Origin: Helianthus annuus
Lineage: Eukaryota > Streptophyta > Magnoliopsida > Asterales > Asteraceae
Assembly (NCBI RefSeq): GCF_002127325.2
Contig: NC_035439.2
Span: 138,509,901-138,573,900, forward strand
DNA: 64,000 nt
Direction: 5' to 3'
The notes below the pieces were generated by a model that was not told the origin of the DNA, did not search any database, and was given only the letters and a program-made list of their open reading frames with translations. The position numbers and the translations under genes are program-made. Below, piece by piece: positions 26,351-64,000 of the stretch (positions are counted from its first letter, which is position 1; each line of letters starts with the position of its first letter).

Positions 26351-29160
26351 TGTAACACCTCGAAAAATTTCGTCCAATAATGTCTTGACACGTGTCATAA
26401 GGTTCCGGTATGTGAAAACATACTTTAGAGGGACTAAAAGTGACAAACAGTGAAAACTATGGAACGTAAGGGTCCAAAGTGTCAACAATGGATAAATAGA
26501 CTCTATGATAACCCTACATAATGTTTATAACCTTAAACGGATGGTTCATGGATCATACGACGCGGAATTTGCACAAAAGTGAGGAATTACAAACTATAGG
26601 GGCCAAAAGTGTCAACATGTTGAATTTATACCTCTGAGTGAACTTTTGGCAGACCCGAAGCTTTTTAATGCTAAAATATACTCACTTAGAATATGTGGTA
26701 AAAATTTCATGAAGTTTCGTTAACGTATGAGAAAGTTATGGCCAAAACCGTACTTGAGGGGCTAAAAGCGTCAACGTCGAATTTCATGGCTTTTCGGTTG
26801 AGCGCAAAGTTATCCGAGGACATTACCATGTTGGTAAATGTCCCAAGGTTCTTAGAAACCAAGTTTGGGGGTTTACGGGTCAAAATAAGTAGCCGAAACA
26901 TCGCGTACAAGAGCAGGGACCAAAGCTGCCAAGTTTGAAAGTTGTTTGGCTGTTAAGCAGGTCAGGCGACCCGCCTGGACAGGCCCAAGCGGGCCGCGAA
27001 CCCCTATCAGATGCAGAAATCGCGAAAATGACCATTTTGGGTCCGAATTTGAAGTGCATTACAGCTTTCATCACCTCTCTTTTGCTCCAATCAGCTTCCT
27101 TGCACGCCTAGGCTATTGTGACCTCTCTATAACATCTGAATTCACCTTAAATCAGATTATTCATTCACTTTCTTGGGGCACTTGTTGTAAACAAAGAACA
27201 CACACAACTTGCAAAACTCTCAAGGCAATTATGGAGCATTTCTGAACGACAAGGCTGACTCTAAGTGTTAACTAAGCTTCATTAGGACCTTTGTAAGCTT
27301 CTATATCAGTCTCTAATTCGTTCTTGCTTTGATTAATTGTTAAAAGTCAAACCGTTGTTCTTATTATTTGACTTTTCGATTAAACGAGTTTTACTCTGTC
27401 ATTTCTCAAATTGAAACCACTGATATGTTGGTATTTATGTGGGAAACAAACCCTCAAAAGGGTATTCTCTAATTCCCACTTTATGCATGCTAATTGTCGA
27501 GTCAAAGGTGTTATTAAAAAGTCAACAGAAATCGTTTTTGCGAAAAATAGCTTAAATGGTAATATAGATGACATGCAATCAGTTTGATCATCATAAATAA
27601 CTTATAATATATGTAAGAATGTGTTTTACCATAATCAACTCGACAATCTTTAGTATAAATACGAATCGGAACCGAAAGTCTTGTAAAACGACTTTTTCGT
27701 AGACTATCGATTCGGATCCGTACATGCATGTTTGAGATCTGTAATGGAGAGTATTTTTGACTATTTTTATTTTAGTATAACTTTCTGGAATTTTTAATAC
27801 TTGAGTCTATGCTTAGCCGATTCATTTGCATGTTTCCGATTTATGCTTAAAGTTGACTATTTTGCCCTTTTTGATATAAAACGTGATTTTTGGAAAAGTG
27901 AAAGAGTAGAAATCTTTATTTCTAATATATAAACTTGCACCGAAAATTTGAGATCAGTTAGTGGTCCAGATTTTGAGTTATGGCCTATATCGTAAAACTA
28001 TATCTTAAAGTTACATAAACGGCGCATTTAGCGTATAACCTATTTCAGGCCACGTTTTGATACAAAACTTTTTATCCACTGATGCTATATAATATTTTGG
28101 GATTTTTGATGATTTTTATTTAATTTTTGGCTGATCGTTTCTTAGATCGCTAAGTTATTTCGGTTTATGCCGGTTTTGACCGTTTAAGCCATAAAATGAG
28201 TTTTACACATTCTTTTGACCCGAAACCTTTTTCTACTGATTTTATATGTTAAATAAATTATTTTGAGCATTCTGGAAATATAAAAATCTCAGCTTTCTTT
28301 TGAAAACCCGGAAACGGCTCTAAATCGTATTTTAAGCGTTTTTAGCGCATAGTGAGCGTTATACTCATTTTAAACATATAAGACTCATACCTACTGATGT
28401 ATTTAGTATATTTTCATATAATAACAGTAAGTATAAATGTTTTAACTCAGATTTCCAGTTTTGGCATTTTTAGCCCTCGTGAAATTACTAAAATACCCCT
28501 ACGGTGCATAGTTTGATTTTAAATGTTAAGTTTGGTATATGGGTCATACCCTACTGTTATAATATGTTAAATGAAGTATGTTTACTGTATAAACCAGACC
28601 CGAAACTCAGATTTCTAATTTGACTCTTTTATAATCTTTTAAATGACCAAAATGCCCTTATAAGGCATAAATTGAGTTTAAAATTATTCGGGGCACAATA
28701 GAACATAACTTGCTGATATTATATTATATTTAAAGCATATTATCTCAGGGAACTTGCATTTGACTCTTTTGACTACCCGTAACGCCCTTTTAGCGTTCGG
28801 CTCGGTTTACGTAACTAGTTTGCGTAAATTGACCGAAACGGGTCAAACATTATCATTTTTATCTCAAAATCCAGAATGTATTTAGTATACCCATATTATA
28901 CAAGTATTCAAACTTGTCGGGTCTAAATCACATTCTATCCGGTCCTTCGCTTAATCGTGCGCTTGTACCGTATCGTTTTTAAAACTAACCGGTCAAAGCT
29001 TAGGCTTAAATAAAAGACCCGTTAGGAATCTAATAGGTTATTATAAACCTTTGTTCCAGATTAGGAGGCCCGGTAAAAGCTACCTACACTTACCATTTGT
29101 GATTCATACTTGCTCAGGTAAATACATTTCGACTTATTTTCCTTATACGGGCTTGGGGTA

Positions 29161-29177
29161 CGGTATTTAAAATACCG
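29161..29177 (+). other. Conserved LTR hairpin CGGTATT-TAA-AATACCG
   Basis: A seven-pair inverted repeat, also at 39680-39696. It recurs with changed loops in gypsy-4 (61381-61397) and solo LTR A (6744-6759), always in the run between a TGGGCTTGGG-like motif and GCTTG. Confidence 0.6.
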
Positions 29178-29339
29178 CTTGATCGAGCGCACAAATCCTG
29201 CGCCCTATGGGTGTACAGTCTTGAATAGTTTGTGCGACTCGTTTAAACAGTCTTGTCTTACTTTAGGCTTTGGGGGGTTATTGACCGTGTCCCGGATATC
29301 CTCGGCATTATCTTACGAGATGGCCACGACCAGAGCACG

Positions 29340-29358
29340 GGGTGTAGGCGTACACCCG
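29340..29358 (+). other. Conserved LTR hairpin with GGCG loop
   Basis: GGGTGTA-GGCG-TACACCC. Also at about 39859-39877 (3' LTR), about 61554-61575 (gypsy-4, stem extended to nine pairs) and about 6924-6944 (solo LTR A, six pairs). Confidence 0.6.
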
Positions 29359-29892
29359 GCGTGTATAACTCTTTAATGTGGTGTGTCATTTAATCTTTAG
29401 CCCGGACAGCAGATCCCGGGCCACCAAAAGTACGAGTACATGTAATTCGTTCACAAGTTTATATTGCATAATTATCCCAAGTTAATAAAAATATTTATGC
29501 CTTGTGCATTTAAATCAATTTTCAATCATTTTCAAAATGAGTCAGTTGATTTGTATTTACCAGTGTAAACTGACGTATTTTCCCAAAAGGTTAAGTGCAG
29601 GTACTATACGAACTAGGCTGGCTGTTTCCTAAGAGCGTCCACTATAGTCTCGCAAGCTCGGACGACAAAATAAACTGTTGAAAAATTTTATCTTATTTTT
29701 ATTTGATCCGCCTGTGGATCCGTTTCAACTACTTATGATGTTATTATTACATTTAATTAAAGTTGAAATGTATCTATTCTGCTTCCGCTATGCATTATTA
29801 TATTGTGTTGTTTGTCTATGACGATGCCAACCACGTCACTGTACCCCACACCGGGCCCACCGGTGACATGTGGAGGTCGGGGTGTGACAGGT

Positions 29893-29905
29893 TGGTATCA
29901 GAGCC
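29893..29905 (+). other. gypsy-3 primer binding site (initiator-Met tRNA)
   Basis: TGGTATCAGAGCC begins 3 nt after the LTR terminal TGACA and matches the complement of the initiator-Met tRNA 3' end. Confidence 0.93.
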
Positions 29906-30096
29906 AACGCTGAGTGAATTAAACACTAGTCTTTTGTGTTTGATCTCAGTTACACAATTGCACATTCCTCGATTTTCGAGTCTAGACAAAGAACTTAGGA
30001 AATGTTCAAAATTTCGTTTGTTTTATTTTTTATTTACTGTTAGCTTTGTCTTATATATTTTGTTGTGCAACTTGTTTGATTTTTAACAGGTTCATC
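29906..30096 (+). other. gypsy-3 short leader before ORF1
   Basis: 191 nt, T-rich towards its end, finishing TTTTTAACAG|GTTCATC before the ATG. This resembles a 3' splice site; gypsy-4 has TTGTATGCAG|GTCAAC at the same place. The intron is hypothetical. Confidence 0.4.
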
Positions 30097-31368
30097 ATGC
30101 CGCCACGTATGCGAGGACGAGGAGGATTCGCCACATCACATGACCACGAGGCAGGGCCTTCGCACAGGCGAGCCCCATCAGCATCGCACAACACTGCAGC
30201 CCATGATCTTTGGAGATCATTCGCCGAGCCAGCCAGGCACTCGGTATCATTGAGTACCTCGCCATCCCTACCCCACTCATTTGGGCCCCACTCTGAAAAT
30301 GGGCCCCACGACTCCCATGGATCTTTCATTCCATTACACCAGTCACCTCACCACTACCCAGCACCAGCTTATCAGGGCCTATACAACCCTGATGCTTACT
30401 TGGATGAACCAGTGGGTCATAACCCACTAGGACCTGAAGACCACTTCTCTGGTGGTAACGAGATGGAGGTCGACGAGGACACTGACCCTTCCCTGCCACT
30501 GTCCGGCACGCCTAACCATCCCATTGAGATATCGGATGGGTCACCATACAGGGGATCACCATTCAATGGTGTTGACAGCTACGAGGAGAGGTTTAAGCAG
30601 CACGAGTGGTTCTATACCCCCAGCCACCACAACTCCCCCATGCACCAGTCTTACCACGGTTCTCCCGTGCACTCTCAGCACCACTCCCAACAGCAGCAGC
30701 ATCAACAGCAGCCCCAGCAGCAGGACCCATCTGAGGCCTTCTGGTGCGACGTGGTCACTCCGTCGCCACCACCACCACCGGTTTTGCCTCCTCCGCCTCA
30801 GAGGCCAAGGAGGAACGCGCGTATGTCTACGCGAGGAGGGATTCGCATTGCCACCCCTCGACATTCAGGTAGCGGCCGCTACTCGCCGCTCCACGAGGAG
30901 TCAGGGATGGGAGAGTCTCAGCATCCCGTCTCAGAGGTTACTTCTGCGACTATTGCGCCACTACCGCCGCAGAACTTTGGAGAGCCCATCCCTGCGTATG
31001 CTAGCGCAGCACAGTTCAATCCTTTCGAGCCGACTTTTCCTCCCGGTTATGATTATACGGGAGATCCCTACTGGTTAGCTTCAGGCTACAACCCTCTCAA
31101 CCAGGAGAGTGCTTTTGGAGGTCCCTGGGTTACGGGACAATCAGCTTTTGGATTCCCACCGCAGGGATACCAGCAGCCGCAGCCTCCACAGCCACCGCAG
31201 TATCAGCCACCGCCGCCAGCGCCGATGATGTCGCCACCGCAAGTCCAAGAAATCCTGCAAGGGATACACGACGTGCGACGGGAATTGCAAAATGATCGCC
31301 GACACAACCGCGGTATGTTCAAGAAGATGGTTGCCTTGATTAAGGGTAAGAGTAAGAAGGATTATTAA
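30097..31368 (+). CDS. gypsy-3 ORF1: novel Pro/Ser/Gln/His-rich protein upstream of gag-pol
   Basis: 423 codons, ATG with A at -3, TAA stop. I do not recognise a domain. The protein starts with a basic MPPRMRGRGG stretch and is rich in Pro, Ser, His and Gln. It has an acidic patch (EMEVDEDTDP, about residue 140) and a PIEISDGS motif about 20 residues on. Gln/His and Pro runs follow in the middle, then an RRNARMSTRGGIRI segment. A charged, probably helical C-terminus ends LIKGKSKKDY. No signal peptide, membrane segment, zinc knuckle or protease motif is seen. Gypsy-4 carries a clear homologue with the same block order. Conserved blocks (NPLGPEDHFSG, GTPNHPI, ERFKQ) amid diverged sequence suggest selection on the protein. 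It shares frame 1 with gag-pol but is separated from it by 888 bp with stops. The role is unknown; nucleic-acid binding is a guess from the basic ends. Confidence 0.8.
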   Translation: MPPRMRGRGGFATSHDHEAGPSHRRAPSASHNTAAHDLWRSFAEPARHSVSLSTSPSLPHSFGPHSENGPHDSHGSFIPLHQSPHHYPAPAYQGLYNPDAYLDEPVGHNPLGPEDHFSGGNEMEVDEDTDPSLPLSGTPNHPIEISDGSPYRGSPFNGVDSYEERFKQHEWFYTPSHHNSPMHQSYHGSPVHSQHHSQQQQHQQQPQQQDPSEAFWCDVVTPSPPPPPVLPPPPQRPRRNARMSTRGGIRIATPRHSGSGRYSPLHEESGMGESQHPVSEVTSATIAPLPPQNFGEPIPAYASAAQFNPFEPTFPPGYDYTGDPYWLASGYNPLNQESAFGGPWVTGQSAFGFPPQGYQQPQPPQPPQYQPPPPAPMMSPPQVQEILQGIHDVRRELQNDRRHNRGMFKKMVALIKGKSKKDY

Positions 31369-31394
31369 ATCCTTTGTTGTTAGCTCTTTTACTC

Positions 31395-31568
31395 ATGTCC
31401 CTGCGTGGACATTTATTCCTGTATTCTACCCCTGCGTGGGTATATTTCTCTTATTCTACCCCTGCGTGGGTATGTTATTTCTGTTTAACCCCTGCGTGGG
31501 TTTGTTTTGTTTGTTTTGTCTGTTTGTTTGTTTTGTTTGTTGTTATTTGGTTTAGCCCCTGCGTGGGC
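31395..31568 (+). other. Five-hairpin CTGCGT array, gypsy-3
   Basis: Five perfect hairpins with the same six-base loop CTGCGT: ATGTCC/GGACAT (31395-31412), TACCC/GGGTA (31427-31442 and 31457-31472), AACCC/GGGTT (31487-31502) and GCCC/GGGC (31555-31568). The first starts 27 nt after the ORF1 stop. Spacing is ~30 nt except before the last, where a TTTG-rich expansion intervenes. A sixth, smaller CCC-GTTTA-GGG follows at 31590-31600. Gypsy-4 has the same array with different but still paired stems. Confidence 0.85.
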
Positions 31569-31600
31569 ATGCTATTTAAGTTGAAAAGTCCCGTTTAGGG

Positions 31601-32256
31601 CAAAAGTTGTACTAGTTTACTTTAATTAAAATGGATAATTTAAATTTTTCATTTTATCTATGTGCATGAATTTAATATTCAAATAAATGGAAATATCAAT
31701 TTTTATTTGATTTGCCATTTTAATAAGAATCTTAGTAAGGTAGAACCTAGCTTGAATGTCTTATTAAAAGGCCTAGCCAATATGGTAAAACCTGGTTGAA
31801 AAGATTCAACTCTCTGTTAACATCTGAAAACATGTTAACATTCTTGACTAAGCGTGATTCGTAAAATCACACATGTCACCCTTTTTAATAAATTATCTAC
31901 AGATTATATCTGTATACAAGTCTGATTGTGACTTGATACCTACGGGTTATGACTATGTCATATAGTGGCAGTTGTGGTTTATGACTCTCTGTCTAGTAAA
32001 GGATTATTTGTTTAATTATACAATGCTAATCCTATAAAAATCTAAATTTATAATTTAGAAGTCGTCCGAAGTGACTAGGCCTATTGTGCCAATATATATA
32101 TTTCATTCCATAATATAGTTGCTAATAAAAGCCCTGAATGAAATTAAATAAATTAACTATTATGATTCTTAATATCATGGTTAATAAATCGTCTAGAACG
32201 ATAATACTGTTAGGTTTCTAAATAAGACCTTGTCCTTTTATGTAGCTTAAAGCTAC
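31601..32256 (+). other. gypsy-3 spacer between hairpin array and gag
   Basis: About 650 bp, AT-rich, with no open frame. Its start (GGGCAAAAGTTGTACTAGTTT) resembles the same place in gypsy-4 (about 63756 on). Stops in all frames separate ORF1 from gag-pol. Confidence 0.7.
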
Positions 32257-35200
32257 ATGGCCAAATCGGAGGAGACCAACAGTCATTCTGGAGAACACCC
32301 AGATGATACAAAGATTCACGTCACTGGTGCGGAACTGCAAGCACTGGTTGAAAACGCTGTTGCCAAAGCTATGGATAGGCAATTCAGAGAATCTAGCGGA
32401 ACTCGGAGTAGGACCCGAACTGTAACGCACGTCAAGCCGAAGACTCATTCAGAGGCTCATAGTAAGCCACCTTCTAAGAAGAATGAGCCGAAGAAGGATG
32501 AGGGGGATAATCACTCCTCCAACCACAGCAGTATTCCTAAGCAAGAAATCAAACTGAAGCATGATACGCACAGCAAGTCCTGTACGTACAAGTATTTCGT
32601 TTCATGCAAACCCAGGGATTTTACTGGGGAAAAAGGAGCAGTTGACTGCATGACATGGATTGATGAGATGGATACTGTGGTTGATATCAGCGGATGTGCT
32701 GATAGGGACGTCGTGAAGTACGTGTCCCAGTCGTTCAAGGGAGATGCGTTAGCATGGTGGAAGTCACTTCTTCAAGCTGCCGGTAAGGCCACTCTGTACG
32801 GTATGTCATGGGAACAGTTTGTGGCCCTGATCAAAGAGAATTTATGCCCGCAGCACGAGGTCGAAAGGATCGAATCGGATTTCGTATCTCTGGTTATGAA
32901 GAACCTCGATTGTCAAGCGTATCTTACTACGTTCAACACTTTATCTCGGTTAGTGCCTTATCTGGTGACCCCAGAGCCGCGAAGGATTGCTCGATTTATT
33001 GGGGGTCTGGCACCAGAGATAAAGGCAAGCGTCAAGGCTTCAAGGCCTACGACATTTAGATCCGTAGCTGATCTATCCCTCTCCCTCACTCAAGATGTAG
33101 TCAGATTGAGAGCTATGAAGAGCTCAGAGGAGAACAAAAGGAAACGTGAGGATGACACCTCACGAAGATCGGAGAAACGACACAGAGGGAACAACGACCA
33201 TAGGAAAGGGTCGGGATCTAAGAAAGGAGATCATCAATCGGGTGAGAGACCCAGATGTAAGACCTGCAAGAGACACCATTTTGGGAAATGTCGTTTGGAG
33301 GCGAAATCCCAGTCTCAAGAAAAACGGTGTGGAATCTGCAAGTCCACGGACCATAAAGCCTTGGACTGCAAGAAGCTTAAGGACGCAACTTGTTTTGGTT
33401 GCAACGAGAAAGGGCACATCCGGCCAAATTGCCCAAAGAATGCGAAGAAGGCTGATGAAGGGAAGAAGACTAATGCGAGAGTCTTCAGAATGGACGCCAA
33501 GGAAGCAGTTCTCGACGACAACGTCATTACAGGTACGTTTCTTGTAAATGATGTTTTTGCTAGAGTCTTGTTTGATTCAGGAGCCGATAAGTCGTTTGTA
33601 GATGATAAGTTTTGTAAATTGTTAAACCTTCCTGTTAAAGCCTTAAGCGTGAAATATGAGGTGGAATTAGCCGATGGAACCATAGAAACCGCCTCGACCA
33701 TTCTAGATGGATGTGTTATATCCATTAGGAATCATTCCTTTCCGTTATCCTTGCTTCCCTTTAAGCTAGCTGGATTCGATATAGTGATAGGCATGGATTG
33801 GTTAGCGCAAAACCAAGCCCAGATTGTGTGCAACAGAAAGCAAGTAGTAGTGAAGACTCCGTCTGGTGAGTCACTCACTATTCAAGGAGATACCCAGCAT
33901 GGATTGCCTGAGCAAGTGTCCATGCTCAAGGCATCCAGATGCATGCAGAAGGGATGTGTCATTTATATGGCACAAGTTACCATTGATGAGCCGAAGCCGA
34001 AGATTGAAGATATCCCTGTTATCTCAGAATACCCTGAAGTATTCCCGGAAGAACTACCCGGTTTGCCACCGGATAGGCAAGTGGAGTTTCGGATAGACAT
34101 CATTCCAGGCGCTGCGCCTGTAGCAAGAGCACCATATAGATTGGCACCAACGGAGATGAAGGAGTTGAGGACGCAGTTGGATGATTTATTAGCTAAAGGT
34201 TTTATTAGACCTAGCTCGTCTCCTTGGGGAGCACCAATCTTGTTCGTTAAAAAGAAGGATGGATCGATGCGTCTGTGCATCGATTTCCGTGAGCTTAACA
34301 AAGTCACTATCAAGAATAGATATCCATTACCCAGGATCAACGATCTGTTCGATCAGTTGCAAGGAGCAAGCTATTTCTCAAAAATCGACCTGAGGTTAGG
34401 TTATCACCAGTTGAAGGTCAAGGAGGAAGACGTACACAAGACAGCATTTAGGACTCGTTATGGACATTACGAGTTCCTAGTGATGCCGTTTGGGCTCACT
34501 AACGCACCAGCCGCATTCATGGATCTCATGAATCGTGTCTGCAAGCCCTATCTAGATAAATTCGTTATCGTCTTTATTGACGACATCCTTATCTACTCGA
34601 AGAGCCGAGCTGACCATGAGAAACACCTTCGTTGTATTCTCAAACTTCTGCATCAAGAGAAGCTTTATGCCAAATTTTCGAAGTGTGAATTTTGGCTTCG
34701 AGAAGTCCAATTCCTTGGACATGTAGTAAGCGAGCGTGGTATCCTAGTAGATCCCGCTAAAGTAGAAGCAGTCATGAATTGGCAGGAGCCAAGGACGCCT
34801 ACTGAGATTCGCAGTTTCCTCGGATTGGCAGGATATTATAGGCGATTTATCGAGAACTTTTCAAGAATTGCTGCGCCCCTAACTTCGTTGACTCGTAAGA
34901 AGATTAAGTTCGATTGGGGCCCTAAGCAGCAGGAATCCTTCGATATTTTGAAGAAGAAGTTAAGCAATGCTCCAGTGTTGACATTGCCCGATGGCGTAGA
35001 AGAATTTGTGGTGTACTGTGATGCGTCACACACTGGCATGGGCTGTGTACTCATGCAGAAAGGCAAAGTCATTGCCTACGCTTCTCGCCAGCTCAAGGTG
35101 CATGAGAAGAACTACACCACCCACGATTTGGAATTGGGTGCTGTTGTATTTGCTTTGAAGCTATGGAGACATTACTTGTACGGAACCAAGTGTATAATTT

Positions 35201-36834
35201 ATTCAGATCACAAGAGTCTTCAGCATCTGTTCAATCAGAAGGAACTGAACATGCGTCAAAGGCGATGGATGGAAACTTTAAATGATTATGACTGCGAGAT
35301 AAGATACCATCCAGGCAAGGCCAATGTAGTTGCCGACGCCTTAAGTAGAAAGGAAAGGGTGAAACCGATCAGAATCAATGCCAAGCGCATTGAGATAAGG
35401 AATAATTTGAATGAAAGGGTGTTAGCTGCACAGAAGGAAGCTGTGTTGGAAGCTAACTATCCTGCGGAAAAATTAGGAGTAACTGAGGAGCAGTTATCCT
35501 ACGACAAAGATGGAATGCTACGACTAAACGGACGAATATGGGTTCCAGTTTATGGAGGACTTCGGGATGTTATCCTCCAGGAAGCCCACAGCTCTAAATA
35601 TTCCGTTCATCCTGGAGCTGATAAGATGTACCAGGATTTGAAAGCAAACTACTGGTGGATTGGTTTGAAAAAGTCAGTAGCTGAGCATGTAGCTAAATGT
35701 TTGACTTGTGCGCAAGTCAAGGCTGAGCATCAGAAGCCGTCAGGTTTGCTTCAACAACCTGAAATTCCCAAGTGGAAATGGGAGATGGTGACAATGGATT
35801 TCATCACCAAGTTGCCGAAGACGAAAAAGGGAAATGATACCATATGGGTCATAGTAGATAGACTGACGAAGTCAGCTCATTTTCTACCCATCAAGGAGAT
35901 GTATAGCTCCGATATGTTAGCTCAATTATACGTCGATAAGATTGTAGCGTTGCATGGTATACCTATATCTATTATCTCCGATAGAGATACTAGGTATACG
36001 TCGCATTTTTGGAAAAGTTTCCAGCAATCGTTGGGCACTCGTTTGAATTTTAGTACGGCTTATCACCCTCAGACCGATGGTCAGAGCGAGCGTACTATTC
36101 AAACTTTGGAAGACATGCTTCGTGCATGTGCGATCGATTTGGGTGGTAGTTGGGATAAGAACCTACCACTGATTGAATTCTCCTACAACAATAGCTACCA
36201 TTCCAGCATAAAGGCTGCGCCTTTTGAGGCCCTATACGGTAGAAAGTGTAGGTCACCCATTTGTTGGGCAGAAGTTGGAGATGTCCAGTTGTCAGGACCA
36301 GATATCGTTTTTGAAACGACGGACAAGATCGTTCAGATTCGCGATCGTTTGAAAGCTGCCAGAGATAGGCAGAAAAGTTATGCAGATCCAAAGCGCAAGG
36401 ATTTTCACTTCGATGTAGGTGATAAGGTATTGCTTAAAGTATCGCCCTGGAAGGGGGTGATGCGATTTGGTAAGAAAGGCAAGCTAAGCCCAAGATACAT
36501 AGGACCTTTCGAGATTATCGAACGTGTCGGGTCAGTCGCTTACAAGTTAAACTTGCCTGAAGAACTTAGCGCTATTCATAATGTGTTCCACATCTGTAAT
36601 TTGAAGAAGTGTTTCGCTGACGAATCACTGGTTATACCGCATACGGATATACACATAGATGAGAGTTTGAAATTCGTGGAAAAACCTTTGTCGATCGAGG
36701 ATCAACAGGTGAAAAAGCTTCGAAGGAAGTACATACCTATTGTAAAGGTCAAATGGGATGCCCGTAGAGGTCCCGAATATACGTGGGAAGTGGAATCCAC
36801 GATGCAAGAGAAATATCCTCATTTGTTTCAGTAA
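32257..36834 (+). CDS. gypsy-3 gag-pol polyprotein, intact
   Basis: 1525 codons from ATG to TAA without interruption. Domains by residue: a Lys/Ser/His-rich N-terminus (1-105); gag capsid-like domain (about 108-285); CCHC knuckles at about 357-370 ([14 protein letters not shown]) and 379-392 ([14 protein letters not shown]), with a preceding partial one; aspartic protease with DSGAD at about 439; RT with FIDD at about 773; RNase H (YCDAS at about 921); integrase with HHCC zinc region (about 1115-1160), first Asp of DDE at about 1180 and SDRD at about 1240; and a degenerate chromodomain-like tail (YIPIVKVKW to TWEVE, about 1492-1512). By family it encodes capsid assembly, maturation, reverse transcription and integration. 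Gag and pol are fused in one frame, as usual for Tekay elements. It lies 888 bp downstream of ORF1, so its translation needs splicing, internal entry or reinitiation. Confidence 0.96.
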
Positions 36835-36870: not shown

Positions 36871-39800
36871 TGTAACACCTCGAAAAATTTCGTCCAATAA
36901 TGTCTTGACACGTGTCATAAGGTTCCGGTATGTGAAAACATACTTTAGAGGGACTAAAAGTGACAAACAGTGAAAACTATGGAACGTAAGGGTCCAAAGT
37001 GTCAACAATGGATAAATAGACTCTATGATAACCCTACATAATGTTTATAACCTTAAACGGATGGTTCATGGATCATACGACGCGGAATTTGCACAAAAGT
37101 GAGGAATTACAAACTATAGGGGCCAAAAGTGTCAACATGTTGAATTTATACCTCTGAGTGAACTTTTGGCAGACCCGAAGCTTTTTAATGCTAAAATATA
37201 CTCACTAGAATATGTGGTAAAAATTTCATGAAGTTTCGTTAACGTATGAGAAAGTTATGGCCAAAACCGTACTTGAGGGGCTAAAAGCGTCAACGTCGAA
37301 TTTCATGGCTTTTCGGTTGAGCGCAAAGTTATCCGAGGACATTACCATGTTGGTAAATGTCCCAAGGTTCTTAGAAACCAAGTTTGGGGGTTTACGGGTC
37401 AAAATAAGTAGCCGAAACATCGCGTACAAGAGCAGGGACCAAAGCTGCCAAGTTTGAAAGTTGTTTGGCTGTTAAGCAGGTCAGGCGACCCGCCTGGACA
37501 GGCCCAAGCGGGCCGCGAACCCCTATCAGATGCAGAAATCGCGAAAATGACCATTTTGGGTCCGAATTTGAAGTGCATTACAGCTTTCATCACCTCTCTT
37601 TTGCTCCAATCAGCTTCCTTGCATGCCTAGGCTATTGTGACCTCTCTATAACATCTGAATTCACCTTAAATCAGATTATTCATTCACTTTCTTGGGGCAC
37701 TTGTTGTAAACAAAGAACACACACAACTTGCAAAACTCTCAAGGCAATTATGGAGCATTTCTGAACGACAAGGCTGACTCTAAGTGTTAACTAAGCTTCA
37801 TTAGGACCTTTGTAAGCTTCTATATCAGTCTCTAATTCGTTCTTGCTTTGATTAATTGTTAAAAGTCAAACCGTTGTTCTTATTATTTGACTTTTCGATT
37901 AAACGAGTTTTACTCTGTCATTTCTCAAATTGAAACCACTGATATGTTGGTATTTATGTGGGAAACAAACCCTCAAAAGGGTATTCTCTGATTCCCACTT
38001 TATGCATGCTAATTGTCGAGTCAAAGGTGTTATTAAAAAGTCAACAGAAATTGTTTTTGCGAAAAATAGCTTAAATGGTAATATAGATGACATGCAATCA
38101 GTTTGATCATCATAAATAACTTATAATATATGTAAGAATGTGTTTTACCATAATCAACTCGACAATCTTTAGTATAAATACGAATCGGAACCGAAAGTCT
38201 TGTAAAACGACTTTTTCGTAGACTATCGATTCGGATCCGTACATGCATGTTTGAGATCTGTAATGGAGAGTATTTTTGACTATTTTTATTTTAGTATAAC
38301 TTTCTGGAATTTTTAATACTTGAGTCTATGCTTAGCCGATTCATTTGCATGTTTCCGATTTATGCTTAAAGTTGACTATTTTGCCCTTTTTGATATAAAA
38401 CGTGATTTTTGGAAAAGTGAAAGAGTAGAAATCTTTATTTCTAATATATAAACTTGCACCAAGAATTTGAGATCAGTTAGTGGTCCAGATTTTGAGTTAT
38501 GGCCGATATCGTAAAACTATATCTTAAAGTTACATAAACGGCGCATTTAGCGTATAACCTATTTCAGGCCACGTTTTGATACAAAACTTTTTACCCACTG
38601 ATGCTATATAATATTTTGGGATTTTTGATGATTTTTATTTAATTTTTGGCTGATCGTTTCTTAGATCGCTAAGTTATTTCGGTTTATGCCGGTTTTGACC
38701 GTTTAAGCCATAAAATGAGTTTTACACATTCTTTTGACCCGAAACCTTTTTCTACTGATTTTATATGTTAAATAAATTATTTTGAGCATTCTGGAAATAT
38801 AAAAATCTCAGCTTTCTTTTGAAAACCCGGAAACGGCTCTAAATCGTATTTTAAGCGTTTTTAGCGCATAGTGAGCGTTATACTCATTTTAAACATATAA
38901 GACTCATACCTACTGATGTATTTAGTATATTTTCATATAATAACAGTAAGTATAAATGTTTTAACTCAGATTTCCAGTTTTGGCATTTTTAGCCCTCGTG
39001 AAATTACTAAAATACCCCTACGGTGCATAGTTTGATTTTAAATGTTAAGTTTGGTATATGGGTCATACCCTACTGTTATAATATGTTAAATGAAGTATGT
39101 TTACTGTATAAACCAGACCCGAAACTCAGATTTCTAATTTGACTCTTTTATAATCTTTTAAATGACCAAAATGCCCTTATAAGGCATAAATTGAGTTTAA
39201 AATTATTCGGGGCACAATAGAACATAACTTACTGATATTATATCATATTTAAAGCATATTATCTCAGGGAACTTGCATTTGACTCTTTTGACTACCCGTA
39301 ACGCCCTTTTAGCGTTCGGCTCGGTTTACGTAACTAGTTTGCGTAAATTGACCGAAACGGGTCAAACATTATCATTTTTATCTCAAAATCCAGAATGTAT
39401 TTAGTATACCCATATTATACAAGTATTCAAACTTGTCGGGTCTAAATCACATTCTATCCGGTCCTTCGCTTAATCGTGCGCTTGTACCGTATCGTTCTTA
39501 AAACTAATCGGTCAAAGCTTAGGCTTAAATAAAAGACCCGTTAGGAATCTAATAGGTTATTATAAACCTTTGTTCCAGATTAGGAGGCCCGGTAAAAGCT
39601 ACCTACACTTACCATTTGTGATTCATACTTGCTCAGGTAAATACATTTCGACTTATTTTCCCTATACGGGCTTGGGGTACGGTATTTAAAATACCGCTTG
39701 ATCGAGCGCACAAATCCTGCGCCCTATGGGTGTACAGTCTTGAATAGTTTGTGCGACTCGTTTAAACAGTCTTGTCTTACTTTAGGCTTTGGGGGGTTAT

Positions 39801-40408
39801 TGACCGTGTCCCGGATATCCTCGGCATTATCTTACGAGATGGCCACGACCAGAGCACGGGGTGTAGGCGTACACCCGGCGTGTATAACTCTTTAATGTGG
39901 TGTGTCATTTAATCTTTAGCCCGGACAGCAGATCCCGGGCCACCAAAAGTACGAGTACATGTAATTCGTTCACAAGTTTATATTGCATAATTATCCCAAG
40001 TTAATAAAAATATTTATGCCTTGTGCATTTAAATCAATTTTCAATCATTTTCAAAATGAGTCAGTTGATTTGTATTTACCAGTGTAAACTGACGTATTTT
40101 CCCAAAAGGTTAAGTGCAGGTACTATACGAACTAGGCTGGCTGTTTCCTAAGAGCGTCCACTATAGTCTCGCAAGCTCGGACGACAAAATAAACTGTTGA
40201 AAAATTTTATCTTATTTTTATTTGATCCGCCTGTGGATCCGTTTCAACTACTTATGATGTTATTATTACATTTAATTAAAGTTGAAATGTATCTATTCTG
40301 CTTCCGCTGTGCATTATTATATTGTGTTGTTTGTCTATGACGATGCCAACCAAGTCACTGTACCCCACACCGGGCCCACCGGTGACATGTGGAGGTCGGG
40401 GTGTGACA
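36871..40408 (+). mobile_element. gypsy-3 3' LTR
   Basis: 3538 bp, nearly identical to 26351-29889. It lacks one T at about 37206 and differs at about 14 single bases by eye. It ends GGTGTGACA before the second TAGAT target repeat. Confidence 0.95.
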
Positions 40409-59548: not shown

Positions 59549-62144
59549 GAAGTGAAGTGGTGAACTTTGATCATTCATTGTGTCACTCACTTGGAGCTTT
59601 TCTCTGGAACTTCCTTGGACAACAACAAGTGCTCATTAAGTCTCTAATCCTTCTTAGGACTCTTGTAAGTGACCCTAACCTCCTTTAATCCATTCTAGCT
59701 TAGTTAATTAGCCAAAAGTCAAACCGTCGTAATTAAGGTTTGACTTCGTGATTAATTAAAATGTGCTCTGTCAAATCACGAATTAAAGATACCTTTAAGT
59801 AGGTAATTATGTGGGTAACAAACCCTTAAAAGGGTACTTCCAGATTCCCACTCTAAACATGTCAATTGTCGAGTCAAAGCTAACTATAAAAAAAGTCAAC
59901 AGAATGCTTAAATCCAAATTAACTTATAATTAGCAATGTAGGATGCATGCAACCTGTTTTATCATTAATATAACTTGGTAAATAATGTAAGAACATGTTC
60001 CAACATGTTCAACCCGACAATTTTCTGTTTAGACCCGGTTTGGAACCGAAAGTCGCATAGTTTGACTTTCGCTTTGACTTTCAGTTCTGACCCGTTTTAG
60101 TCATGATTATGATTTCCTTAGAGCTTCTTTTGGACCTAATAACATGTTAGTATATCCTCCTGTGATTATACAACTTGGTTCATTAGATATCTTGATCTTA
60201 TGCATGTTTCCGTTAAATGCTCATATGTTGACCATTATGCCCAAATGTCCATAAATCATGATTTATGAAAATATAAAAGGGTAGACATCTTAGTTACTGA
60301 ATTTTAGACTTGTCCCCAAAATTTGACATCAATTTGAGGTCTAGGTTAGGAGTTATGCTCATTAGCGTAAATAGAAGCTTTCTTAGTAAATAGTTAGCGT
60401 AATTAGCATGTAACCTACCTAAACCCAAATTTTGTATCAAAAACTTTATACCCACTATTATATAATAATATTTTGGGAATTTTAAAGATTTTTATTTATT
60501 TTTAGGCTGAGCATAACATAGGGTTTTAAGCTTAATTCGGCTTATGCCGGTTTTGCCCTTTTCGGCTATAAAATGAGTTTTACAAAACCTTTTGACCTCA
60601 AACCTTTTCCTACTGATTTATTATGTTAAATATATTATTTTGAGCCTTTTGGAATTATAAAAATATCAGCCTTTCTTTAAAAACCCGGAAATGGCTTCAA
60701 ATCGTCTTTTTAGGCATTTTTACGACATAGTATATGTCAAAACTAGTTTTTATACATAAGGTCTAATACCTACTGATATATTTTGTGAAATTTCATATTA
60801 TAACAGTAAACTAAAGTTGAGAACTCAGATTTCCGGTTTTAACCTTTTAAGCTTATGTAAAATTACCAAAATGCCCTTATGGGGCGTAATTGGAGTTCAA
60901 AATCATTTGGGGCATAATAGGACTTATCTTACTGATATTACAACGTATTTGGTGCATATAATCTCAGGAAACTTGTGTATGATTTATATGGCTACCCGTT
61001 ACGCACTTTCGCGTTCGGATCGGCATATGTGACTAGTTTATGCACATTAGCCGAAGCGGGTCAAAGCGTATCATCTTAGTCTCTAAATTCAGAATGTATT
61101 TAGTTTACCCATATTACACAAGTCTCCAAAATTGTCGGGTCTAAGTCACATTCCTTTTTTTGTTTTCGCTTTCCTCACGATTAAACCATGTTTATCCTTC
61201 GAAACTAACCGGTCTAAGCTTAGGCTATGTTAAAAGACCCGTTAGGACTCTAATAGGTTATTATAAACCTTCGTTCCAGAATAGGAGCCCAGTAAAAGAC
61301 ACTTGCATTTTGCTTTTGTGGGTTATACTTGCTCAGGTAAATACTTTTAACTTATTTTCCCTTATATGGGCTTGGGGGTACGGTATATAAAATACCGCTT
61401 GGTCGGGCAATTGACCCTAACTCATTAGTAGTTGGGTATTATCAATATGACCCGTTTGAAAACTGGTTTGTTTGTTTTACGCCTTTGGGAGCTTAATGAC
61501 CATGTCCCGGATATCCTTGGCATCATTTTAAGAAATGGCCACGACCTTGACACCCGGGTGTAGGCGTACACCCGGTAATGTGTCCATTTATTAAGGTATA
61601 AACGTTGGCTTCCCGCCGCGGATTTATACTGAGAGGTGTGTCAATTAACCTTAAACCCGGCACGACCCGGGCGACTGAACGCATAACGAACATGTAATTC
61701 TTTTACAAGTTTAACTTTGATTAATTATTCCCAAGTTATAAAATGTTTTGTGCCTTGTGCATTCAAATCAATTTTTAAAACCTTTTCAAAATGAGTCGGT
61801 TAAATTGTATTTACCAGTGCAAACTGACGTATTTTCCCCAAAAAGATTAAGTGCAGGATCTACACGGAATAGGCTGGTTTCTCCTTAGCATCATAGAGTC
61901 TCGCAAACTTTGGGATGCATTTATCTGTTGAACAATTTTCTCCTTTTTAATTCGATCCGCCTGTAGATCTATTTCGACTACTTGTGATACTTAGATATTA
62001 CATTTGATGGTTGAAGTAAATCTATTTTATTGCTTCCGCTGTGCATTATAATTTGTGTTGTTTAACAATGATGATATCAACTACGTCACGATAATCCCCC
62101 ACCGGGCCCACCGGTGACACGTGTAAATTCGGGGTATGACAGGT

Positions 62145-62334: not shown

Positions 62335-63562
62335 ATGCCGCCAAGATTTCTTCGCGGTCGAGGCAAAGGACCAGTCACGGGTCACGATCACGAAGCCGGG
62401 CCTTCGCACTGGCGTACCCCGTCCATCACCATGAGCACTAGTCCACAGGAGCCGTGGAGGCTCTATGTTGAACCCGGGAGACGGTCAGTTTCCCTCAGCT
62501 CTTCACCTTCTTACCAGCACTCCTTTGGGCCCCAATCGGAAAACGAGCCCAACGAACAACCACCCTCTTTCATACCTTTGCAGAGATCCAACTCTCACCA
62601 CTCCTTTGGTGACCCAACCCCAGTTTTCCAAAGCCGATTCAACCCGGCCAACATGCTTCCAGAACCCATGGGTTTTAACCCACTCGGACCGGAAGATCAC
62701 TTCTCTGGGGAAAATGACATGGACGAGGATACTGATCCAATGGAGCCTGCTACAGGAACGCCGAACCACCCCATCAAAATCTCGGATGGGTCATCTTTCC
62801 ACGGATCACCGTACCGCGGTCCGGATAGTTATCAAGAGAGGTTCAAGCAGTGGGACTGGTACTTCACGCCCTCTGAGCACTCGTCCCCGTATCAGCAACA
62901 GCAGCAGCAAGATCCTTCTGAGGATCAACGATTTGTGGCAGTCACTCCGCCACCACCACCACCAGTGGAACAGCAGCCGCCTCCGGAGCCACCGAGGCGG
63001 AGAAGGTCGAACGCACGGATATCCGTGCGAGGAGGAGTCCGAATCAGCACTCCCCAGCCCTCAAGTGGTAGTCATTATCCGCCACTCCAGGAGGAAGAGG
63101 AAGTCCCACAGATGGGAGGTCCATCCAGCCCCATTCCAGAAATCAACTCAGTACCTGCGGCACCACCGTTGGGTTTCGATAACCCAATCCCTGCATACGC
63201 CGGTTCAGCGGCGTATAATCCTTTTGAGCAGCCGACGCATACCCACTACAACTACAACTACGCTAGTGTGGATCCATATCAGGAAGCATGGGATTACAAC
63301 GCTAGTCACCCAGAGGGGCCTTATGGTGGTCTATGGACCACAGGCTACCCGACTTATGGGTACCAGCATCCCCACGCCGCCTCCTCCACCGGTGTACCAG
63401 TCGCCGCAGCCACAGATAATTCCACCAGAGCGCCAGCAGGAAGTCCTTGAGAGATTAGACCGTTGTGAACGGGAGATTTAGACTGAGCGCAGACACAACA
63501 GATGATTCTTTAAGGGACTATCAGATCTGATCAAGGGAAAGTCCAAAAGAAGGGACTATTGA
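62335..63562 (+). pseudogene. gypsy-4 ORF1 homologue, decayed
   Basis: It starts ATGCCGCC, like gypsy-3 ORF1, with A at -3 and CAG|GTCAAC just upstream. The first ~340 codons are open and share blocks with gypsy-3 ORF1: MPPR then RGRG; HDHEAGPSH; SVSLS then SPS; NPLGPEDHFSG; DEDTDP; GTPNHPIKISDGS; ERFKQ then TPS; and RRSNARISVRGGVRI. The frame gains a net +1 at about 63360-63390, so the open frame runs on to a TGA at 63448-63450 while the homologous sequence continues in the next frame. There it passes two stops (TAG 63479-63481; TGA near 63503) and ends with the conserved LIKGKSKRRDY before TGA 63560-63562. A homologous but now inactive gene of unknown function. Confidence 0.82.
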
Positions 63563-63594: not shown

Positions 63595-63729
63595 AGTCCC
63601 TGCGTGGACTTTTTGCTTCAGTATTCAGCTCCTGCGTGAGCTTGTCATTTTGTACTCTGCTCCTGCGTGAGCATGTTTGGTTAGTTAACCCCTGCGTGGG
63701 TTTGTTTCTTTCCCCGCCCCTGCGTGGGC
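63595..63729 (+). other. Five-hairpin CTGCGT array, gypsy-4
   Basis: Five perfect hairpins with loop CTGCGT: AGTCC/GGACT (63595-63610), AGCTC/GAGCT (63627-63642), TGCTC/GAGCA (63658-63673), AACCC/GGGTT (63687-63702) and GCCC/GGGC (63716-63729). Spacing is 29-32 nt, and the first begins 33 nt after the ORF1 stop. A sixth CCC-GTTTT-GGG follows at 63748-63758. Confidence 0.85.
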
Positions 63730-63758
63730 ATTTATTTTCGTAGAAGTCCCGTTTTGGG

Positions 63759-64000
63759 CAAATGTTGTACTTGTTTGAAACAATTATGAGATGTTTTAGT
63801 TAAATTTTCATCTTTATTTATTATTGATAACTATATGCATAAAACCTTAAAATAAGTGAAAATTTAAAAAGATCTGCCGTTATATTGAAATGGTAAAATC
63901 TAAAGAGAACAGAGACCTAGCCTTTTGATTAATAAAACAAGGCCAAAATGGTAGTTCCATAATTAGGTTAAGATCCATAATTAACATCTCAATTTAGGAC
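63759..64000 (+). other. gypsy-4 spacer before gag
   Basis: AT-rich, no ORF. The start resembles the gypsy-3 spacer. Gag would begin to the right of the window. Confidence 0.6.

Follow-up and report, generated by a model that had tools for sequence, protein, structure and literature searches.

A probably selected array of CUGCG-loop RNA hairpins lies behind the additional 5' open reading frame of sunflower Ty3/gypsy retrotransposons

In MLV, hairpins with GACG loops are found in the leader just before gag. Such tetraloops take part in retroviral packaging (PMC516450), and the MLV hairpins SL-C and SL-D, which repeat one loop sequence, were linked to both packaging and dimerisation (PMC516450 and PMC5874298, in their available parts). 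The hairpin array that we describe here in sunflower (Helianthus annuus) shares this repetition, but whereas MLV has two GACG hairpins with 4-nt loops, the sunflower array has 3-10 hairpins with 6-nt loops and is located behind an extra ORF. The packaging signal in the nsP1 region of alphaviruses is also comparable, as it is formed by 4-6 short stem-loops in which GGG at the base of the loop is conserved, and packaging is lost when these stem-loops are disrupted (PMC8233893, in its available part). However, that signal lies within coding sequence, belongs to a virus that is not reverse-transcribed and carries GGG rather than CUGCG; moreover, its function was shown, whereas for the sunflower array we infer one. 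Cer1 of C. elegans is an LTR retrotransposon with an extra nuclear protein, CERV, that is needed for the export of its genomic RNA (PMC10309623, in its available part), a likeness that we draw from the description. Unlike in the sunflower elements, no hairpin array appears in that text, in which “stem-loop” and “response element” had no matches and the one “hairpin” was a protein fold (PMC10309623). The host elements of the array and their additional 5' ORF (5'aORF) have already been published (PMC11728184, PMC12844716, in their available parts). In sunflower, the Ty3/gypsy elements of Tekay group 2 carried the 5'aORF in 500 of 523 cases; like the elements studied here, they are present in a high copy number and have an extra 5' ORF of ~400 aa that is proline-rich, ends in a basic C-terminal motif and precedes gag-pol (PMC11728184, in its available part). 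The same part of that paper is concerned with the ORF and the protein that it encodes; it contains no match for “hairpin” and does not describe the array.

The window, i.e., the whole stretch of 64,000 nt of sunflower DNA that was analysed, contains an LTR retrotransposon around the array at 31395-31568, with LTRs of ~3.5 kb, between which an ORF1 of 423 aa is followed by the array, an AT-rich stretch of 686 nt and a gag-pol ORF of 1525 aa. A second, related element with a broken ORF1 and an array of its own enters the right end of the window. Apart from the arrays, the following features were recognised:

26351-29889, + strand: 5' LTR of the first element (ends approximate; a direct repeat with the sequence from 36871 onward, 100% identical over two 300-nt stretches)
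29893-29906, + strand: primer-binding-site-like sequence TGGTATCAGAGCCA, 3' of the LTR (read from the sequence; identical in the second element)
30087-30090, + strand: conserved CAG/G, 3'-splice-site-like, just 5' of the ORF1 ATG (a candidate site, found in every ORF1-start row that was aligned)
30097-31368, + strand: ORF1 (5'aORF), 423 aa, proline-rich with a basic C-terminus (open reading frame)
32244-32256, + strand: conserved AG (in TATGTAG), 3'-splice-site-like, 10-14 nt before the gag ATG (a candidate, from family rows compared by eye)
32257-36834, + strand: gag-pol ORF with capsid, protease, RT, RNase H and integrase (open reading frame and Pfam domains)
36871-40408, + strand: 3' LTR of the first element (direct repeat)
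62335-63450, + strand: ORF1 of the second element, with an interrupted open frame (in most rows, the alignment of relatives extends to residue 346-348)

The Pfam matches at 32257-36834 placed a Ty3-type capsid, PR, RT, RNase H and integrase in the gypsy order. The CCHC-type knuckles of Gag were read from the translation, while the Pfam knuckle models had no match to Gag; no type II chromodomain was matched in Pfam at E<=0.1 and ORF1 matched no Pfam family. We take TGGTATCAGAGCCA to be a primer-binding-site-like sequence of the initiator tRNA-Met type. The label “Tekay-like” rests on the 5'aORF and on the description in PMC11728184, the available part of which gives the basic motif RKSHRGFLKGLANLLKGKK that the C-terminus of ORF1 (...FKKMVALIKGKSKK) resembles by eye, a likeness that carries no score. 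Names such as “extensin-like” or “early nodulin-75-like” are frequent for this ORF1 in the public sunflower annotation (P0013, P0015, P0021, P0065 and others); the entries under such names are apparently transposon proteins that were misnamed as host genes.

The two arrays and the conserved block that follows each of them are composed as follows, with hairpins and the second block read from the sequence:

31395-31412, + strand: hairpin 1 of the first element, ATGTCC-CTGCGT-GGACAT, 6 bp
31427-31442, + strand: hairpin 2 of the first element, TACCC-CTGCGT-GGGTA, 5 bp
31457-31472, + strand: hairpin 3 of the first element, TACCC-CTGCGT-GGGTA, 5 bp
31487-31502, + strand: hairpin 4 of the first element, AACCC-CTGCGT-GGGTT, 5 bp
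31555-31568, + strand: hairpin 5 of the first element, GCCC-CTGCGT-GGGC, 4 bp
31588-31603, + strand: conserved block GTCCCGTTTAGGGCAA, 3' of the array, with a possible CCC/GGG mini-hairpin (3/487 differences in family A)
63595-63610, + strand: hairpin 1 of the second element, AGTCC-CTGCGT-GGACT
63627-63642, + strand: hairpin 2 of the second element, AGCTC-CTGCGT-GAGCT
63658-63673, + strand: hairpin 3 of the second element, TGCTC-CTGCGT-GAGCA
63687-63702, + strand: hairpin 4 of the second element, AACCC-CTGCGT-GGGTT
63716-63729, + strand: hairpin 5 of the second element, GCCC-CTGCGT-GGGC
63746-63761, + strand: block GTCCCGTTTTGGGCAA of the second element

The motif CCTGCGTG occurs 10 times in the window, always on the + strand and with five copies each at 31400-31565 and 63599-63726, compared with 0.85 expected, and 10 occurrences were reached in none of 100 shuffles. 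An earlier sequence-only reading of this DNA reported five hairpins in each element with the loop CTGCGT and stems of 4-6 bp, which is what the sequence contains, and its compensatory stem pairs between the two elements were correct. Comparing the family majorities over 25 homologous pairs (five hairpins with five pairs each), seven pairs differ, of which six changed on both sides with Watson-Crick pairing kept, none was broken and one is open in both families. The period of ~30 nt that was claimed describes most of the units (24-32 nt), but longer spacers occur, e.g., one of 67 nt that precedes hairpin 5 in the window. The array lies close behind ORF1, as was also claimed, at a distance of 26 nt in the first element, but the 33 nt given for the second element holds only against the homologous end, because the ORF1 of that element is broken and its frame ends at 63450. 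Additionally, GTCCCGTTT followed by A or T and then GGGCAA, or a close variant, is found 3' of the arrays (31588-31603 and 63746-63761).

In the 3.01-Gb sunflower genome, three consecutive motifs spaced 10-40 nt apart had 2359+2224 matches compared with 109+78 for the reversed control. Extrapolating from the first 100 rows, which held 51 arrays on part of one chromosome, there would be ~2,300 arrays in the genome. Loci were also ascertained from the side of ORF1 using the ORF1 of the first element, of the second element and of a distant family as queries, for which the 99, 110 and 104 matches listed were the best of 17,457, 16,382 and 19,324 candidates, respectively. The loci taken from these lists (30, 20 and 20) were chosen by their ORF1 similarity and not by their hairpins; the window's own copy was among the 30 loci of the first query. 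The array was present behind ORF1 in all 70 loci, and the CCCGTTTnGGGC form of the block 3' of it in 59 of them. The number of hairpins was 3, 4, 5, 6, 7, 8, 9 and 10 in 1, 2, 47, 8, 3, 4, 4 and 1 loci, respectively; the number five that was thought to be kept is therefore the commonest one within a range. Fewer than three exact copies of CCTGCGTG were found in seven of the 70 loci, where three were reached only with variant units. In the 40 short loci, the motif always had the expected orientation (40 vs none on the opposite strand).

The reverse search agreed with this. Among 38 distinct arrays that had been ascertained by the hairpins (L001-L008, ten of L039-L068 and L189-L208), 36 had ORF1 similarity upstream, which in L050 was weak (2e-3); the two misses were L004, with other sequence upstream, and L197, of which ~270 nt upstream were covered. 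Copies confined to places outside ORF1-bearing elements, which the sequence-only reading named as evidence against itself, were thus not the picture obtained. Similarity to gag was found downstream in 17 of the 18 array-ascertained arrays with 1.5 kb of downstream sequence and in all 27 family-A loci examined. The exception was L044, in which other sequence follows hairpin 4 and the row of which, with a spurious gag ATG, was excluded from the comparison of gag starts. Three nearby copies of one internal deletion of most of gag (L002, L003 and L004, G000:C1:10.59-10.61 Mb) form a gag-deletion derivative that is uninformative on retention because it is a local triplication; its junction had no copy elsewhere with <=3 mismatches allowed. 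No non-autonomous gag-less family that keeps the array was found, one deletion derivative with its three local copies having been followed. The ORF1 relatives among the matches listed were from Helianthus species (the best 120 of 121 and of 193 in word-based protein searches, which have a limited reach).

Because the array co-occurs with ORF1, the ORF1 protein is by its position as good a candidate for a partner as Gag. It is possible, though unlikely in our estimation, that the array serves export in the manner of Rev/RRE or a CTE, in which a nuclear and perhaps oligomeric ORF1 protein would bind the hairpins of the unspliced RNA through its basic tail and carry this RNA out of the nucleus or past splicing. 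The co-occurrence in 70 of 70 and 36 of 38 cases supports such a role, as does the last alignment block of ORF1, which is 0.82 identical to that of L053, the most distant intact family, compared with 0.34-0.60 and, in one case, 0.75 for the other blocks. However, this block has fewer than 40 columns and is only 0.55 identical to that of the L042 family. The CAG/G before the ORF1 ATG and the AG before the gag ATG are both kept across families, which suggests from the alignments that they are 3' splice sites; against this role, no 5' splice site could be fixed and ORF1, matching nothing in Pfam, has no RNA-binding fold. High AT is a feature of plant introns, and the stretch between the array and gag is 67-71% AT in seven elements. 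A nuclear signal, RKSHRGFLKGLANLLKGKK, was predicted in the described sunflower 5'aORF (PMC11728184, in its available part), and the CERV protein on which Cer1 relies for export is made from a spliced mRNA (PMC10309623, in its available part). A more specific version, which we regard as rather improbable, is that this plant LTR lineage has its own Rev/RRE-like circuit, where a nuclear, oligomerising ORF1 protein would bind the CUGCG-loop array in the unspliced but not the spliced gag-pol RNA and control its export, splicing or packaging. Such a circuit would fit because ORF1 co-occurs with the array and because conserved AGs precede both ORFs.

The LTR sequence TTGCTCAGGTAAATAC, exact in both elements, was weighed as a splice donor and discarded: a TATA-like palindrome is located 3' of it, so that TTGCTCAGGTAAATAC may precede the start of the transcript. 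This LTR palindrome, CGGTATTTAAAATACCG / CGGTATATAAAATACCG around a TATA-like box, is conserved in both elements (29160-29180 and a matching stretch near 61380). At the gag start, a short hairpin, TGTAGC-TTAAA-GCTACA, is found at 32241-32256 of the window, and the conserved AG before the gag ATG of the first element also lies inside its TGTAGC/GCTACA stem. The family of L048 has a longer stem at this place (ATTGTAGC/GCTACAAT). The first arm of the gag-start hairpin often contains ATGTAG, a start-stop pair. L053 and L209 do not keep this feature.

Position also bears on a role in translation or stability, either as an element in the 3'UTR of ORF1 or as an IRES or reinitiation aid for gag-pol, to which we assign a low probability. 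It is in keeping with such a role that hairpin 1 begins so soon after the ORF1 stop in the first element and that gag-pol is the second ORF. However, the distance from the array to the gag start was 684-789 nt with 15-22 ATGs in all seven elements measured, which is hard to pass by scanning or reinitiation and far for a short IRES. Because of these ATGs and this distance, help for ribosomes looks the weakest of the functional options that the sequence-only reading proposed, the others being binding by Gag or by the ORF1 protein, although the ATG count does not speak against a role in the 3'UTR of ORF1. Export of unspliced RNA from the nucleus and dimer linkage were absent from that reading and have to be considered in addition.

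The comparison of copies within families showed how strongly the hairpins are constrained. In family A, which has 31 rows, i.e., 30 loci and the window copy, so that the latter is included twice, the stems differed from the majority at 6/1232 positions, loop bases 1-5 at 3/770 and loop base 6 at 14/154, compared with 156/1992 in the spacers, 488/14651 in the downstream sequence and 56/6200 at the end of ORF1, a rate that is biased low because the loci were chosen by ORF1 similarity. The stems and loop bases 1-5 thus vary ~16-20 times less than the spacers, a degree of constraint that the block GTCCCGTTTAGGGCAA 3' of the array shares. In the other families, the stem and spacer rates were 2.3 vs 8.2% (B), 0.4 vs 1.2% (E), 3.8 vs 5.2% (F) and 4.5 vs 12.9% (G); the loop rates were 6.5% in F, which is above its spacer rate of 5.2%, and 6.2% in G, with 3/10 copies of the F family and 5/14 of the G family having been ascertained by the motif.

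Across the 393 hairpins of the 70 loci, loop bases 1-6 differed in 9, 2, 12, 23, 7 and 45 hairpins, respectively, and hence the loop is best described as CTGCG with one nearly free base. The invariant loop of the sequence-only reading accordingly stands for bases 1-5, which are near-fixed, but not for base 6, which is mostly T and also C or A. The commonest changes in bases 3-5 were CTGTGT (12), CTACGT (11) and CTGCAT (4); CTGTGT and CTGCAT are CpG transitions of CTGCGT, and loop bases 1-5 hold despite the CpG that they contain. The CTGCG core is the majority in all of the hairpins of four of the five families and in all but one hairpin of family G, where CTGTGA is the majority. It is hardly conceivable that the array is an unselected minisatellite in which template switching in the course of copying maintains perfect stems. 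Its units are in tandem and its length varies among copies, as would be expected of one, but template switching fixes no loop and explains neither the 16-20-fold lower variation in family A nor the strict boundary of the stem. Equal rates of substitution in stems and spacers among young copies were not seen in family A. Moreover, recent expansion is not the main source of the arrays, because the units within an array mostly differ in their stems, less so in family G.

Covariation was assessed in 132 loci with 101 distinct arrays and 571 units, the loops of which were CTGCGT in 453, CTGCGA in 30 and CTGCGC in 20. Among the 108 distinct CTGCGT units, which were kept only if >=2 of 4 pairs form, pairs 1-4 were Watson-Crick in 91, 101, 100 and 84, values that were reached in 131, 0, 0 and 0 of 2000 permutations; pair 5 was formed in 48/108 (3/2000 permutations) and pairs 6-7 were no better than chance. 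When the count was repeated without the filter on 308 units (71 of them distinct) from the 70 ORF1-ascertained loci, 61, 67, 68, 54 and 32 of the 71 formed pairs 1-5, respectively, values that 205, 1, 0, 0 and 14 of 2000 permutations reached, and there was nothing at pairs 6-7; these permutation counts are not probabilities because the copies share ancestry. Pair 1 alone is near chance in both sets. All four pairs were formed in 270 of the 308 unfiltered units. The corresponding count of 351/393 fully paired units is biased upward because the hairpin finder requires some pairing, loop variants being counted only with a paired stem. An independent count used the 40 units that were seen at least twice among the 71 distinct 16-mers: paired cells made up 88.0% vs 76.9% after shuffling, 33 cells vs 13.5 were changed on both sides and the covariation score was 0.503 vs 0.297, each reached in 0/500 shuffles, with the slid-partner controls at 0.011-0.146. 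The number of pairs with a change on both sides was not significant in these 40 units (57/500). Arms from different units paired fully in 330/969 combinations compared with 270/308 for arms of the same unit, and covariation is therefore unit by unit. Covariation persisted in the further copies, and the selected RNA structure that was proposed from two elements is now strongly supported by many copies and families.

Thermodynamics by itself does not identify the hairpin string as the preferred fold. The global folds of the two window arrays had z values of -1.90 and -2.24 with a minimum that pairs units with each other, and in eight other arrays that were scored the global minimum was 8.5-62.7 kcal/mol below the hairpin string. 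When pairs were limited to a span of 24 nt, the hairpins had a probability >0.5 in 41 of the 53 units of these eight arrays. Each of the five units that were tried is self-complementary, with homodimer energies of -15.5 to -19.7 kcal/mol compared with -3.3 to -5.4 for the hairpin. Because of this self-complementarity, the covariation is also compatible with an intermolecular duplex, and in-register duplexes between molecules predict stem covariation equally well. The array might accordingly be a dimer linkage, in which contact between two genomic RNAs through the UGCG loop core would be followed by a longer duplex of each hairpin with the corresponding one in the other RNA, a reading that we consider to have little probability. 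The UGCG core can pair with itself through two G-C and two G-U pairs, as the self-complementary loop of a dimer initiation site does. However, UGCA, which is one CpG transition away, would be expected to kiss more strongly, and CTGCAT does arise (4 changes from CTGCGT, 5 in all) without being the majority in any of the five families; nor was the loop found to change freely while remaining palindromic, the CTGCG core being fixed. Moreover, loop base 1, which is outside the core, is constrained (9/393 vs 45/393 at base 6). A protein reader is favoured because the core is fixed and non-optimal (UGCG rather than UGCA) and base 1 is constrained. The loop complement ACGCAG was dropped as a kissing partner; its single occurrence in the first element is within pol.

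With regard to the strand, G-U cells exceeded A-C cells on the sense strand by 80 to 19 when pooled and by 33 to 15 in distinct units, and this excess suggests an action on the sense strand; the bias was absent among distinct private changes (11 to 12, or 23 to 14 counting every copy).

Searches for similar arrays elsewhere found no plant relative among the matches listed in two scans of viral contigs. There were 68 viral strands with >=3 motifs, of which seven had >=3 stems of >=4 bp. Three of these seven (L251, L290 and L298) have one nearly identical repeat region in common; together with L295, they were rejected as relatives, since the ORFs of L298 and L295, read by eye, give them the look of phages with unrelated repeats. 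The repeats of all four form CTGCGT-loop hairpins, and those of L295 have varying stems (GCAATC/GATTGC, GTAATC/GATTGC and GTAATC/GATTAC). The remaining three were L171, L262 and L278. Arrays with another loop end (CTGCGV) had 1348 matches in the sunflower genome (control 0+6), the 100 listed being other repeats by eye, and were set aside. The loop-variant pattern was also matched at many places of the genome (G000) by two tandem repeats, one with a 48-bp unit that contains CCTGCGGGCGCATGGG and one with the 18-bp unit CCTGCGAGGATCCTTGAA. In Rfam, the region 29800-32400 had no such family at E<=1, the one match being weak, unrelated and below the gathering score (E 0.79). The matches listed in a PMC text search for the motif strings looked unrelated by title. 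No RNA packaging or dimerisation signal of a plant LTR retrotransposon and no RNA structure of a sunflower Tekay element was among the matches listed in the literature search, which covered titles and the starts of abstracts and left most subscription journals uncovered.

Taken together, the near-fixed loop, the covarying stems, the sharp stem boundary, the constraint within families and the position behind ORF1 in all of the loci examined make it very probable, judging by sequence, that this is a selected RNA hairpin element. In this view, the sense transcript of Tekay-like Ty3/gypsy elements with a 5'aORF would bear a cis-acting RNA element made up of 3-10 consecutive hairpins. Their stems have 4-5 bp, and each hairpin would present a near-identical loop of CUGCG and one free base. 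Its position, covariation and constraint are those of a structured RNA between the primer-binding site and gag, from which we infer action in cis. It presumably acts as RNA, with the loop being read by a protein that would gain avidity from the repeated site. The loop may be bound by the nucleocapsid part of Gag with its CCHC-type knuckles, and through this binding the full-length genomic RNA would be selected for inclusion in the particle. Such a multivalent packaging signal is our tentative first choice, which we hold with somewhat less than even confidence; it is placed first because leader hairpins of this form do so in other retroelements, i.e., by analogy. The case for packaging comes from the position, the repetition, the near-fixed exposed loop with its G residues and the precedent.

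To our knowledge, no role of the 5'aORF proteins has been established, and no plant LTR retrotransposon is known to us to have a cis-acting RNA element for packaging. The array is a multi-hairpin leader element in a lineage in which none was known to us before. Being strongly constrained and adjoining the 5'aORF, it offers a concrete, short target for testing what Gag or the ORF1 protein recognises.
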